This document shows positions 19,153-47,788 of a stretch of DNA of 47,831 nucleotides, piece by piece (positions within the stretch are counted from its first letter, which is position 1; every line of letters starts with the position of its first letter). The stretch comes from Melioribacter roseus (lineage in GTDB: Bacteria; Bacteroidota; Ignavibacteria; Ignavibacteriales; Melioribacteraceae). A program made the translations under genes and the position numbers. The stretch spans positions 1 to 47,831 of the forward strand of contig DYLP01000019.1 of assembly GCA_020722005.1 (NCBI GenBank). Reading direction: 5' to 3'. Below the pieces are notes generated by a model. The model worked only from the letters and a program-made list of their open reading frames with translations. It did no database searches and was not told where the DNA came from.

Positions 19153-19806
19153 CTACTTCAATTCCTTTTGTAATTGAGACGAATCGGCAGCTTTTTTAAG
19201 GGAATCGATCATTTTCCTGTATTTTCTAATCATTTCCGGGTTAGGATTCCGACGCACGAAAAATCCGTCGAATTCAGGAATTTCATCACCGGCTTTGACA
19301 ACGCTTCCCTGTAATAAATTAGAACGTTTATAATTCTTACCGGCAATATAATCGTCTAGTTCTACTGACCTTCCAGGCAAAATGGGATAATTATGCACAT
19401 TACCCTCCTGCCCTTCGATTTTGTCGGTATAATTATCTTCCTGAGATTGTAATTCATTTTCTTTCGGACTTTCCTTTTTTTGAGTCAAAGGAGCTGACTG
19501 GTGATTAAGTTCGCTTACAATTACCTGTGGTTCGGACCTCAATGGGTCTTCGTAATTTTGTTCACCTGGAAGGAAAAGAACAAATAGTATTATAACCGTA
19601 ATCACAACAGCCGTTGGAGCAAGAAAACGGATTAGTCCAAACTGCATTCTCTCGCTTTGGTTTGCATTTCCGAAATTACCGTTCTTAATACGTGTCATAA
19701 GAACGTATTCGAAATTATCATCGGCTTTGATGCGAGGAAGTTGCCTGAGGTCTTCAATTAGTTTTGAATATTTTTGCTCTTCATCATTGTAACGGTTTAC
19801 TTCCAT
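19153..19806 (-). CDS. Membrane-anchored putative anti-sigma partner of the ECF sigma factor
   Basis: This 217-residue protein has a cytoplasmic N-terminal part with DLRQLPRIKADDNFEYVLMTRI (about 19-40). That pattern is common in small proteins encoded next to ECF sigma factors in this group. One membrane helix follows (about 61-80), then a hydrophilic, glutamine- and glutamate-rich region and a C-terminal tail that would lie outside the cytoplasm. No zinc-binding HxxxCxxC anti-sigma motif is visible. Its ATG lies 3 nt after the sigma gene stop. The anti-sigma role is inferred from position and topology. Confidence 0.65.
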   Translation of the reverse strand: MEVNRYNDEEQKYSKLIEDLRQLPRIKADDNFEYVLMTRIKNGNFGNANQSERMQFGLIRFLAPTAVVITVIILFVLFLPGEQNYEDPLRSEPQVIVSELNHQSAPLTQKKESPKENELQSQEDNYTDKIEGQEGNVHNYPILPGRSVELDDYIAGKNYKRSNLLQGSVVKAGDEIPEFDGFFVRRNPNPEMIRKYRKMIDSLKKAADSSQLQKELK

Positions 19807-19809
19807 AGG

Positions 19810-20400
19810 CTACTCGTTATATATGTTTTTTAATAATTTTTGTAATTGGTTTCTTCCGCGATTAATTCTCGATTTTACTGTACCGAGTGATACATTTGTA
19901 ATTTCGGAGATTTCTTCATAACTGAGACCTTGAATATCCCTGAGAATTACCATCTGCCGATAGACTGGTTTAATTTTCATCAAAGCTTTCTGGATATAAT
20001 CATTCTTAATCTTGCTGTCGGTTATACGGTCTGGGAGGTGAAACGATTTATCTTCTACCTGGATTTGTTTATCCTCATCCGAATTTGTAATCGAGAGTAT
20101 CGACCGACGACGTCTTCTCTTTAGTTCATTTTTTGCCAGATTTCCCGCAATCGTATAAATCCACGTGGAAAATTTCGCGAACTCTCTGTATGAATCTTTA
20201 TTTAAATAAAATTTTATCATTGTATCCTGAACTATATCACTACATACATCCCGGTCGCCTACAAATCGATATACAAAGTTCATTAAAGGATCCTTATAAC
20301 GTTTAACGAGAATTTGATACGCTTCCAGATCATTTGTTTCCTGAAACCGTTTAATTAATTCTTCGTCTGTAAGTTCATTTAATATACGATCGTTAGGCAA
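19810..20400 (-). CDS. ECF-type RNA polymerase sigma factor
   Basis: This 196-residue sigma-70 relative has region 2 (ECF pattern, RYKDPLMNFVYRFVGD through FSTWIYTIAGNLAKNELKRR, residues about 29-95) and region 4 (LRDIQGLSYEEISEITNVSLGTVKSRINRGR, residues about 148-178). Regions 1 and 3 are absent, as expected for an ECF factor. The start is a TTG at 20400 lying right after an in-frame TAA, and the first internal ATG would delete half of region 2. The TTG or another non-ATG start is therefore needed, and this start is uncertain. A membrane partner gene follows 3 nt downstream. The signal is not evident. Confidence 0.9.
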   Translation of the reverse strand: MPNDRILNELTDEELIKRFQETNDLEAYQILVKRYKDPLMNFVYRFVGDRDVCSDIVQDTMIKFYLNKDSYREFAKFSTWIYTIAGNLAKNELKRRRRRSILSITNSDEDKQIQVEDKSFHLPDRITDSKIKNDYIQKALMKIKPVYRQMVILRDIQGLSYEEISEITNVSLGTVKSRINRGRNQLQKLLKNIYNE

Positions 20401-20493: not shown

Positions 20494-21504
20494 TCAACCG
20501 ATAATTTTAGCCAGAAGTTGTGTTACAATATCTTTCGGCTCGGTTTGAGTAGTTTTAACTGCAAGATCGGCTTCGTATAAAGCTTTTGCTGCTTTTCTCA
20601 GGCGGCTTTCGTTTAATAGAAATTTCGCCTTTTTACAATTTATATAGTAGAACCAGCTAATTCCCAATTTAGAAGAGGCTTCCCTGTCACTTAAGTTCAT
20701 GCGCATAAGCTCTATTGTTTGAGTAATTGTCGATACATATTTGGATATCATATTTATTAGCGTTGCTATTTCCATATTAGAATCGAGCAGATTGAAAGAA
20801 ATTTCGAGAGCCCGGGCAATATTACCCACACCAATAGCATCCTGTAAATCAAAAATGGTATAAGTCTTTGTTGGATTAATTAATTTCTTAACTTCTTCGA
20901 ATTCCGCATCCGGTTTAGAAATGAGGTAATCAGCTATTTTGTCGAGCTGAGAATTTAAGAGCGATTTATTTTCACCCACAATTTCGATAATAATGCGAAT
21001 TTGTTCCTCGCTAAAATTAAGATTCAATTTCTTCATACGATTGGTTAACCAGTTTACGAGGTCCTCGCCACTTTCTTCCATAGCTTCATATAAATAACCT
21101 TTCTCATTCAGTAATTTAAACGGTTCTTTGTTGAGTTCAGTTTTATCAGCATATTGAAGAATTACTAATATTGTAAAATCGGGGGGATTTTCGAGATAGT
21201 TAATTAATTCTTTTTTACTGTTAATATTTTCAAAATTTTTTATGATTAATAATTTTTTACCACCACCGAAAGGGAAAGCCAGAGCCAGGTCAATTATCCT
21301 GTTTATATCCTCGCCCTTTTCTACTGCTATTATCTCTTTATCGAATTCAGAATTGATTTGTGGCGCCAACTGCTTCTGAAGATAATCGACAGCTGCACCG
21401 AGCGAATACTGGTCGTTGCCGCATAAATAATAAACTGGTTGAAAAATTCCTTTTTTAATCTCTTGTATTATTTGATTTACGGATTTAGTCGATTTTATTG
21501 CCAT
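20494..21504 (-). CDS. holA: DNA polymerase III delta subunit
   Basis: The delta subunit opens the sliding clamp within the clamp-loader complex. The protein (336 residues from the ATG at 21504) has the HolA order: an AAA-like N-terminal domain with PVYYLCGNDQYSL, a KLLIIKNFENINSKKELINYLENPP strand-helix segment, a middle lid and a C-terminal collar helix bundle. The frame extends 19 codons further to 21561, but that part is low in conservation and is better explained as the out-of-frame overlap with a small gene (21485-21607). The ATG at 21504 gives the conserved start. It is the last gene of the fsa-ftsK-uppP run. Confidence 0.9.
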   Translation of the reverse strand: MAIKSTKSVNQIIQEIKKGIFQPVYYLCGNDQYSLGAAVDYLQKQLAPQINSEFDKEIIAVEKGEDINRIIDLALAFPFGGGKKLLIIKNFENINSKKELINYLENPPDFTILVILQYADKTELNKEPFKLLNEKGYLYEAMEESGEDLVNWLTNRMKKLNLNFSEEQIRIIIEIVGENKSLLNSQLDKIADYLISKPDAEFEEVKKLINPTKTYTIFDLQDAIGVGNIARALEISFNLLDSNMEIATLINMISKYVSTITQTIELMRMNLSDREASSKLGISWFYYINCKKAKFLLNESRLRKAAKALYEADLAVKTTQTEPKDIVTQLLAKIIG

Positions 21505-21607
21505 TGCTATTCTTAATTTTTTCTTTTTTAATTGCTTGCCACAAAAAATACAAAAAGCCACCCCACAAAATTAAAATTACGAACGCTCCATAAAAAAACG
21601 CTAACAA
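21485..21607 (-). CDS. MetS-like small subunit of the NSS transporter
   Basis: This 40-codon frame starts at a TTG one nucleotide after the transporter stop. A good AAGGA ribosome-binding site (21616-21620) lies 8 nt upstream, inside the transporter's 3' end. The peptide has one membrane helix with the pattern FYGAFVILILWGGFLYFLW followed by a basic KKEKIK tail. That is the character of the small subunits (MetS type) encoded right after sodium:neurotransmitter symporters, which are required for transport by MetP in Corynebacterium glutamicum. The 3' end overlaps the start of holA by 20 nt in another frame. Identity is from pattern and context only. Confidence 0.7.
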   Translation of the reverse strand: MLAFFYGAFVILILWGGFLYFLWQAIKKEKIKNSNGNKID

Positions 21608-21608
21608 T

Positions 21609-23078
21609 TTAATAATCCTTAACTTTTTTGTAATTGTTATATAAACCGTTCAAAATAATTAGCAAAATTATTGCACTACCCCACTGAAATAAACACGTAC
21701 CTAGATTATCTCGATGGAAAGGATGCCACCATTGTGGATCCCAGGAAGTTGATGAAAATAACCACCATGAAATCAAAACAATAACTTCAGCAGGTATGAC
21801 GAATTTAATCAAAAAGTTGAACCATTTACCAACTTTCAAATCGCTATCGGTGTTATTGAGTATACCACCTCTGAATCTATTTACGCCGTATTTATTTATA
21901 GCCATTGCAATGAAAGCTCCGCTGATCAAAAGAGCAATACCCCAGACCCAATCCTGATTTATTAAAAAGTCGACATTTAACGCCGAAGGAATTCCAAAGA
22001 GGAATACCACTGAACCAACAGTGAATATCGATTTTTTACGTTCCAGTCCTACATCGTTCAAACTTTTAGCAGCCAGCTCGACCATAGAAATTAAGGAAGT
22101 TAATGCTGCGAAGGAGAGAGCCATAAAAAAGAGAATCGCAAAGATTCTATTGAGCCAAACATAATTGGACATTTTAGTGAACAATGACGGCAAATAGATA
22201 AATGTCAGTCCGGTATTTGCAGGTCCGGGCTCTGAAATTATTGCAAGTGGAGAATCGCCACCCAAAGCAAAAACTGTCGAGAAAATAATCATTCCAGACA
22301 ATAATGAAATAGAATTATTACCAAAACCGATCAGCGCTCCGTTAAGCGTAACGTCTTCTCTCTTTTTCATATAGATTGCATAAGTCATAATCAAGCCCCA
22401 TCCCGCTCCTGTATCCCATGCATTTTGAGTTAGTGCATTTAGCCAGACGCGGTAATCGAGTAGATACTTTTTTTCAGGAGTAAAAAAGAATTTCAGTCCT
22501 TCAACAGCGCCAGGCAATGTAACGGCTCTGACCAGGAGAATAATAAGCACTGCCACCAGCGAGGTTACAAGTACTCTGTTGACCTTTTCAATTCCTGCTG
22601 TTATTCCTCTGTAAATTATAGCGGAGCTAAGTAGCACAGCAATTAAATGAAACAACAAAGGTAGAAATCCAGAATTGAAATTATTCCAGTAATTTAGGTA
22701 GTCTGTAGTAATAAAAAGCCTACCGGTTAAAGAAGAAAAAAAATAATAAAAAGCCCATCCTGAAACTACTGAATAATAAAACATTATAGCAGTTGATACA
22801 AATGCAACGAAGGCACCCATCCAGCCGTTCTTTTCTCCTGCAAAGTACCGAAATGCAAAGAAAGGAGATTTTCTGGCAGTTTTACCGAATGCAAATTCAG
22901 ATATTATAAGAGGCAAAGACCATAAGAATAAAAAAATAAGCCACGGTATTAAAAATGAACCGCCACCATTTGTGGCCACTATTCGCGGGAATCGCCATAT
23001 ATTTCCTGTACCTACTGCTATTCCAAGAGTAGAAATTATTAGACCCCACCTTGAAGAGAAAAATTCTTTTTGACTCAT
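21609..23078 (-). CDS. Sodium-dependent transporter of the NSS/SNF family
   Basis: This 489-residue inner-membrane symporter has about 12 helices and a LeuT-like fold. The first helix carries the unwound Na+/substrate segment AVGTGNIWRFP (21-31), and TM6-8 segments such as ALTQNAWDTGAGWGLIMTYAIYM are recognisable. Members of this family import amino acids with sodium. The substrate cannot be determined here. The start is the ATG at 23078, directly after the stop of the cyclophilin gene. The following 40-codon MetS-like gene is expected to be its partner. Confidence 0.93.
   Translation of the reverse strand: MSQKEFFSSRWGLIISTLGIAVGTGNIWRFPRIVATNGGGSFLIPWLIFLFLWSLPLIISEFAFGKTARKSPFFAFRYFAGEKNGWMGAFVAFVSTAIMFYYSVVSGWAFYYFFSSLTGRLFITTDYLNYWNNFNSGFLPLLFHLIAVLLSSAIIYRGITAGIEKVNRVLVTSLVAVLIILLVRAVTLPGAVEGLKFFFTPEKKYLLDYRVWLNALTQNAWDTGAGWGLIMTYAIYMKKREDVTLNGALIGFGNNSISLLSGMIIFSTVFALGGDSPLAIISEPGPANTGLTFIYLPSLFTKMSNYVWLNRIFAILFFMALSFAALTSLISMVELAAKSLNDVGLERKKSIFTVGSVVFLFGIPSALNVDFLINQDWVWGIALLISGAFIAMAINKYGVNRFRGGILNNTDSDLKVGKWFNFLIKFVIPAEVIVLISWWLFSSTSWDPQWWHPFHRDNLGTCLFQWGSAIILLIILNGLYNNYKKVKDY

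Positions 23079-47715: not shown

Positions 47716-47788
<73 letters not shown>

Follow-up and report, generated by a model that had tools for sequence, protein, structure and literature searches.

Among the transporters of the NSS class, the closest described precedent for the gene pair analysed here is the MetPS system of Corynebacterium glutamicum, whose small subunit, MetS, is reportedly needed by MetP, a result said to go back to Trotschel et al. in 2008. Genes for MetS-like subunits are typically found directly beside that of an NSS symporter. LeuT and MhsT, solved bacterial members of the class, are not known to need a small subunit; in animals, the SLC6 transporter B0AT1 has a one-helix partner, ACE2 or collectrin. 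In the literature, the Corynebacterium system is called a two-subunit NSS member in PMC3219685; passages of PMC8140960 contain no mention of MetP or MetPS. A partner complex of a further animal SLC6 transporter, SIT1-ACE2, is treated in PMC11217458. The animal complexes resemble the locus presented below in the one-helix partner of an NSS/SLC6 transporter, an analogy of working alone; unlike the bacterial peptide, their partners are animal proteins with a large outer domain.

The window, namely the whole stretch of 47,831 nucleotides of Melioribacter roseus DNA that was analysed, carries a 40-codon frame that is very probably a real gene, encoding a one-helix partner of a sodium-driven transporter, of the MetS kind. 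As in the MetS family (MetS of MetPS; models NF033493 and NF033494, Pfam PF16951), a one-helix protein of 30-60 aa is encoded right after an NSS symporter. The window peptide differs from MetS in its shorter length (40 aa, against models of 53 and 60 positions), its scores below the cut-offs, its TTG start and its overlap with holA. The features involved are the following:

21609..23078, minus strand: NSS (SNF) symporter gene, 489 aa, with 12 TM helices in the model (PF00209, E 1.4e-60; AlphaFold2; Foldseek)
21681..21752, minus strand: NSS residues 443-466, the conserved outer loop with the head of the twelfth helix (S..WD.EWWNPF..EN.GT..QW), from the alignment and per-site conservation
21616..21620, minus strand: AAGGA, a possible ribosome-binding site within the end of the NSS gene, 8 nt 5' of the TTG, read from the sequence
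21485..21607, minus strand: metS-like gene, 40 aa, proposed small subunit of the NSS symporter (open reading frame, match to a profile built without itself, sub-cut-off NF033493 match, conservation in 45 loci)
21557..21565, minus strand: W-G-G, codons 15-17, in the middle of the helix of the metS-like peptide
20494..21504, minus strand: holA, DNA polymerase III delta, 336 aa from the ATG at 21504 (TIGR01128, E 2.7e-59; start conserved in relatives)

A small gene behind the symporter stop

The membership of the larger protein in the NSS/SNF symporters is seen in its PF00209 score (205.9 bits against a cut-off of 27) and in the LeuT fold of its AlphaFold2 model (alignment of 26 rows; pLDDT 86.7, pTM 0.89), which Foldseek matches best to LeuT (E 5.1e-20). 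The last helix of the model comprises residues 459-488, giving 12 helices by our own count. MhsT, the best solved relative by sequence (E 1.5e-77), has the same fold and aligns to profile positions 4-435 only, leaving out the last loop and helix of the window protein.

The earlier note had placed a TTG frame right behind the symporter stop, the strand being unstated, and this holds on the minus strand: a single base separates the two genes, because the NSS stop codon, TAA, occupies 21611-21609 and the metS-like frame starts with TTG at 21607-21605, to run for 40 codons and a stop ending at 21485. The peptide, MLAFFYGAFVILILWGGFLYFLWQAIKKEKIKNSNGNKID, displays a single hydrophobic stretch, which contains W15-G16-G17 and leads into KKEKIKNSNGNKID; K and R are absent from residues 1-26, and K is found at 27, 28, 30, 32 and 38. 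Read from its sequence, it is thus the one-helix protein with WGG and a basic C-terminal end that had been proposed. The frame across the same bases on the opposite strand is interrupted by a stop. The AAGGA that had been described as well placed is indeed present; it is, however, not linkable to an anti-Shine-Dalgarno sequence, because neither the window's assembly (G000) nor the one-contig genome of a congener (G001) yielded GGATCACCTCCTT, the 3' end usual for 16S rRNA, and a loose purine site lies 5' of the start in just 16 of 45 loci. The absence of GGATCACCTCCTT from both genomes may reflect rRNA missing or withheld from the data, or an unusual 16S end.

A search with the NSS protein returned 25 loci, 24 of them close and one a Lachnospiraceae outlier, and a WGG frame is found immediately 3' of the symporter stop in 22 of the 24 close loci; in the remaining two, the contig ends at that point (L014) or an inserted gene precedes the small gene (L015). 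The W, G and G are invariant in all 23 rows of an alignment of the small proteins, and a leave-one-out profile, made from 22 relatives with the window excluded, ranks the metS-like frame first of the 1511 segments from the six-frame translation of the window (E 2.8e-12; runner-up 0.49). Conservation of the helix in this frame among relatives, which the earlier note had offered as a check, is therefore borne out, and the reading of the frame as a spurious ORF is rejected by the WGG invariance together with the leave-one-out value.

The layout was compared in 45 distinct loci, with the window included and L014, whose contig ends before the WGG, dropped; the contig-derived and genome-search sets overlap, and identical loci were removed for this count. 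The start codon of the small gene is ATG in 39 loci, TTG in 5 and GTG in 1, and the TTG of the window is therefore a local feature. The start lies between -11 and +15 nt relative to the NSS stop in 43 of the 45 loci, and at -4 in 14. The congener G001, the sole other genome of the genus examined, has the identical layout, with TTG, 40 aa, a 1-nt gap and a 20-nt overlap with holA. Between the window and this congener, dN/dS amounts to 0.30-0.34 for the metS-like ORF (few sites), 0.06 for holA and 0.05 for the NSS gene; the small ORF is under constraint, far looser than that on its two neighbours. In a 198-genome draw of the phylum, small genes of this type (type A) were present in 14 genomes, of which 12 belong to the window's order and one is from further in the class, the last lying elsewhere and having no NSS gene upstream. 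One lineage (L015/L142) has a gene of ~137 codons (GxxExxY-like by eye) between the symporter and the small gene, which are 486 nt apart; the retention of the small gene there speaks for the subunit reading.

With regard to known families, the NCBIfam model MetS_like_NSS (NF033493) matches the window 40-mer over the helix with significant similarity (E 2.5e-4; residues 11-28 on profile positions 13-30 of 30), yet its 20.7 bits lie below the curated cut-off of 25. In a six-frame search of the whole genome with NF033493, the best place is the metS-like frame (E 0.0034); as a control, this search was positive in 7 of 14 named genomes, including C. glutamicum, and above cut-off in 3. Every one of the 23 alignment rows gives an NF033493 match at E<=1, the strongest at 2.5e-9, while NF033494 matches 15 of the 23 and Pfam MaAIMP_sms 16 at E<=1, the window not being among the latter; no Pfam model matches the window peptide. 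When ten relatives were scored singly, nine matched NF033493 at E<=0.01 and three passed its cut-off (29.9, 36.7 and 34.5 bits), while none reached the Pfam cut-off; the small peptide of the congener gave no match to NF033493 at E<=0.01. NF033494, the equivalog model for MetS of a methionine/alanine importer (cut-off 70 bits), gave no match to the window at E<=10, and its best score among the ten relatives was 24.1 bits. Among solved structures, the small protein has no relative at E<0.1 (best E 0.1). In view of these sub-cut-off and partial scores across relatives, the window clade lies at the margin of the described family. The earlier claim of a MetS-like protein stands with respect to similarity but does not extend to curated membership or to NF033494; by its model scores, the label that holds is 'MetS-like' rather than 'MetS', and the gene is, as far as sequence comparison goes, a new, divergent relative of the known MetS kind.

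Transporter clades with and without the small gene

A PF00209 search of 58 related genomes identified 72 NSS genes, which split into three clades in a quick tree (SH-aLRT 99-100), clade A being separated by a branch with SH-aLRT 100. A small gene (E<1e-3) lies downstream of 28 of the 29 clade A genes; the 29th, L152, labelled clade A in the quick tree, is on a contig that ends 41 nt past the NSS stop, inside a frame with a similar beginning (E 1.7e-4). In contrast, no small gene accompanies any of the 23 genes of the short, 11-helix clade, whose proteins end after helix 11 according to sequence alignment rather than fold. Type-A genes are also missing from the third clade, of 20 NSS genes (best E 0.044). 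Throughout the 58 genomes, a single type-A profile match at E<=0.001 occurs without a clade A NSS gene (G005, E 9.8e-4); it falls in a cysteine-rich frame of 73 residues and looks spurious. In these related bacteria, small partner genes accompany 12-helix NSS transporters and not 11-helix ones.

The 443-466 segment of the NSS protein is absent from the 11-helix paralogues. Within it, clade A shows almost no variation at W446, W450, P453, N458, T461, Q465 and W466, and the remainder of helix 12 is variable; one may speculate that this segment serves as a docking site for the small protein. The short-clade loci display an arrangement of their own: at L063 (1057-2427) and others, a membrane ORF of at least 232 codons, AGCS-like by eye, lies within ~50 nt downstream of the 11-helix NSS gene, as a conserved transporter pair; among the 12 loci inspected out of the 23, 11 have this arrangement.

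We regard it as highly likely that the 40-codon frame is genuinely coding and that its product is a MetS-like small subunit of the NSS symporter encoded next to it. This subunit would pack against the 12-helix transporter, be needed for its stability or activity, and be translated by re-initiation. The small protein would span the membrane once, with its N-terminal end outside and its lysine-rich tail inside, as expected from the positive-inside rule, and its contact with the transporter would perhaps be close to helix 12 and to the outer loop before it; it would keep the symporter stable or active. The ribosome would begin on the small gene straight after the symporter, re-initiating where the stop and the start abut or overlap, and abutting genes would yield matched amounts of the two proteins. 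Computation establishes the gene, its conservation, its layout and its link to one NSS clade; the topology, the contact, the need for the small protein, the translational coupling and likewise any substrate are matters that we infer.

The clade pattern that surrounds the metS-like gene is worth more than the gene alone. The split between 12-helix transporters with and 11-helix transporters without a small gene, across 58 genomes, makes the role of helix 12 and of the small subunit directly testable, since it names the transporters expected to need a partner, those that are not, and a conserved outer loop for contact. Gene finders and family cut-offs overlook genes of such size, and studies in which an NSS protein of this kind is expressed alone may therefore lack a subunit.

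A second type of companion helix

The third clade (clade B), also of 12-helix transporters, has companions of another type, since 13 of its 20 genes are followed by a frame for a one-helix protein of 34-42 codons, which lacks WGG in 12 of the 13:

Just 3' of the NSS stop (at +284 in L154): type-B genes of L153, L156, L162, L163, L164, L138, L137, L122, L158, L154, L157, L165 and L161

The reach of NF033493 into type B is weak, with matches at E<=0.1 for 6 of the 27 members (best 5.1e-4); none of the Pfam and NCBIfam models matches this type at cut-off. Comparison of the type-A and type-B profiles yielded a probability of 95.1 and a score of 32.6, while 60 column-shuffled controls reached at most 21.5, none being as high; these values make a distant kinship of the two types, as judged from the profiles, likely.

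A type-B match is present in all 19 genomes with a clade B NSS gene and in 2 of the 39 other genomes; 13 of the 19 supplied peptides for the type-B profile (A2), and thus match by construction. The independent part of this result consists of the six genomes that have a clade B NSS gene without an adjacent peptide, all of which match, as against the same 2 of 39 without such a gene. In these six, the type-B peptide is encoded elsewhere, in five of them next to a gene judged by eye to be phosphofructokinase-like. The Fisher values for co-occurrence (6e-14 and 2e-13) overstate the association, because the relatives are not independent. In the 198-genome draw, an NSS gene lies directly upstream in 16 of 18 further type-B loci. 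Type-B-like peptides were also observed, with the partner genes named by eye, after SulP-like (L181, L183) and AGCS-like (L187) transporter genes, and beside phosphofructokinase-like genes (L176, L178, L180, L182, L185, L189); such peptides away from NSS genes possibly belong to a wider family of companion helices.

It is rather likely that bacterial NSS transporters of the 12-helix kind generally have a one-helix subunit, of at least two anciently diverged types: A, with WGG, in one clade, and B, mostly without it, in the other 12-helix clade, which extends across Bacteroidota. The 11-helix transporters have none. Type B would be able to part from its transporter gene while persisting in the genome, and similar peptides lie beside other transporters; a larger family of companion helices may therefore be unannotated. 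The second type also allows an equivalent test in a further clade, whose members include Bacteroidota distant from the genus of the window. A literature search that covered mainly open-access work returned no open paper dealing with MetS-like subunits in Ignavibacteria or with the second type, which is weak evidence of absence.

Type B also bears on another reading, in which the small protein is a real membrane protein of the operon that either serves some other partner or regulates more generally, for instance as an adaptor for proteolysis of the transporter. In the 58 genomes, 15 of 28 type-B matches do not adjoin an NSS gene, which counts against a strict NSS role, and several ways are known in which transporters are modulated by small proteins of about this length (PMC10710835); however, the link of type A to one NSS clade (28 of 29) and not to the other (0 of 23) makes such a role improbable.

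The overlap with holA and the wider window

The first 20 nt of holA overlap the end of the metS-like gene, as had been claimed, because the conserved holA start is the ATG at 21504. Among the 45 loci, holA is downstream of the small gene in 41, and its first ATG precedes the end of the small gene in 34 of these; of the four loci without holA, three have little or no remaining sequence, and L023 has 2833 nt downstream in which holA is absent. The frequency of the overlap could be taken as a sign that the small frame is a translated leader that couples holA to the symporter, the peptide itself being immaterial. This is more improbable still than another partner, considering that the helix and WGG of the peptide are conserved, that the small gene tracks the NSS clade rather than holA, being absent beside 11-helix NSS genes, and that it is present at L023 without holA.

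Least probable of all is a holA start at GTG 21561, which would turn the stretch into the N-terminal part of holA and leave the small frame unused: the holA frame can be extended across the small gene, as the earlier note had pointed out, being open back to about 21570, and the congener shares the identical opening (-86), but in 37 of the 41 holA loci the frame opens just 0-56 nt upstream of the small-gene end (the window and G001, at -86, L124, at -83, and L139, at -77, are those further upstream), changes between the window and G001 in the upstream stretch are not biased to the third positions of the holA frame (7, 10 and 12 by codon position), and TIGR01128 aligns to the extended protein from residue 43 on. 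An extended holA N-terminus is thus not what is conserved here, and it was rejected on the distribution of its opening. The reading of the frame as the gene for a MetS-like subunit of the symporter is the one we retain.

In the rest of the window, the sole match to known RNA families is one tRNA (47716-47788). Promoter-like sites number 15, against 15.7 in shuffled sequences, that is, no excess, while terminator-like sites number 7, against 2.8. Finally, the stretch at 19153-20400, on the minus strand, contains a sigma-factor-like gene of 196 aa that starts with TTG and, behind it, a 217-aa ORF with a single hydrophobic segment; by eye, the two are perhaps an ECF sigma/anti-sigma pair.
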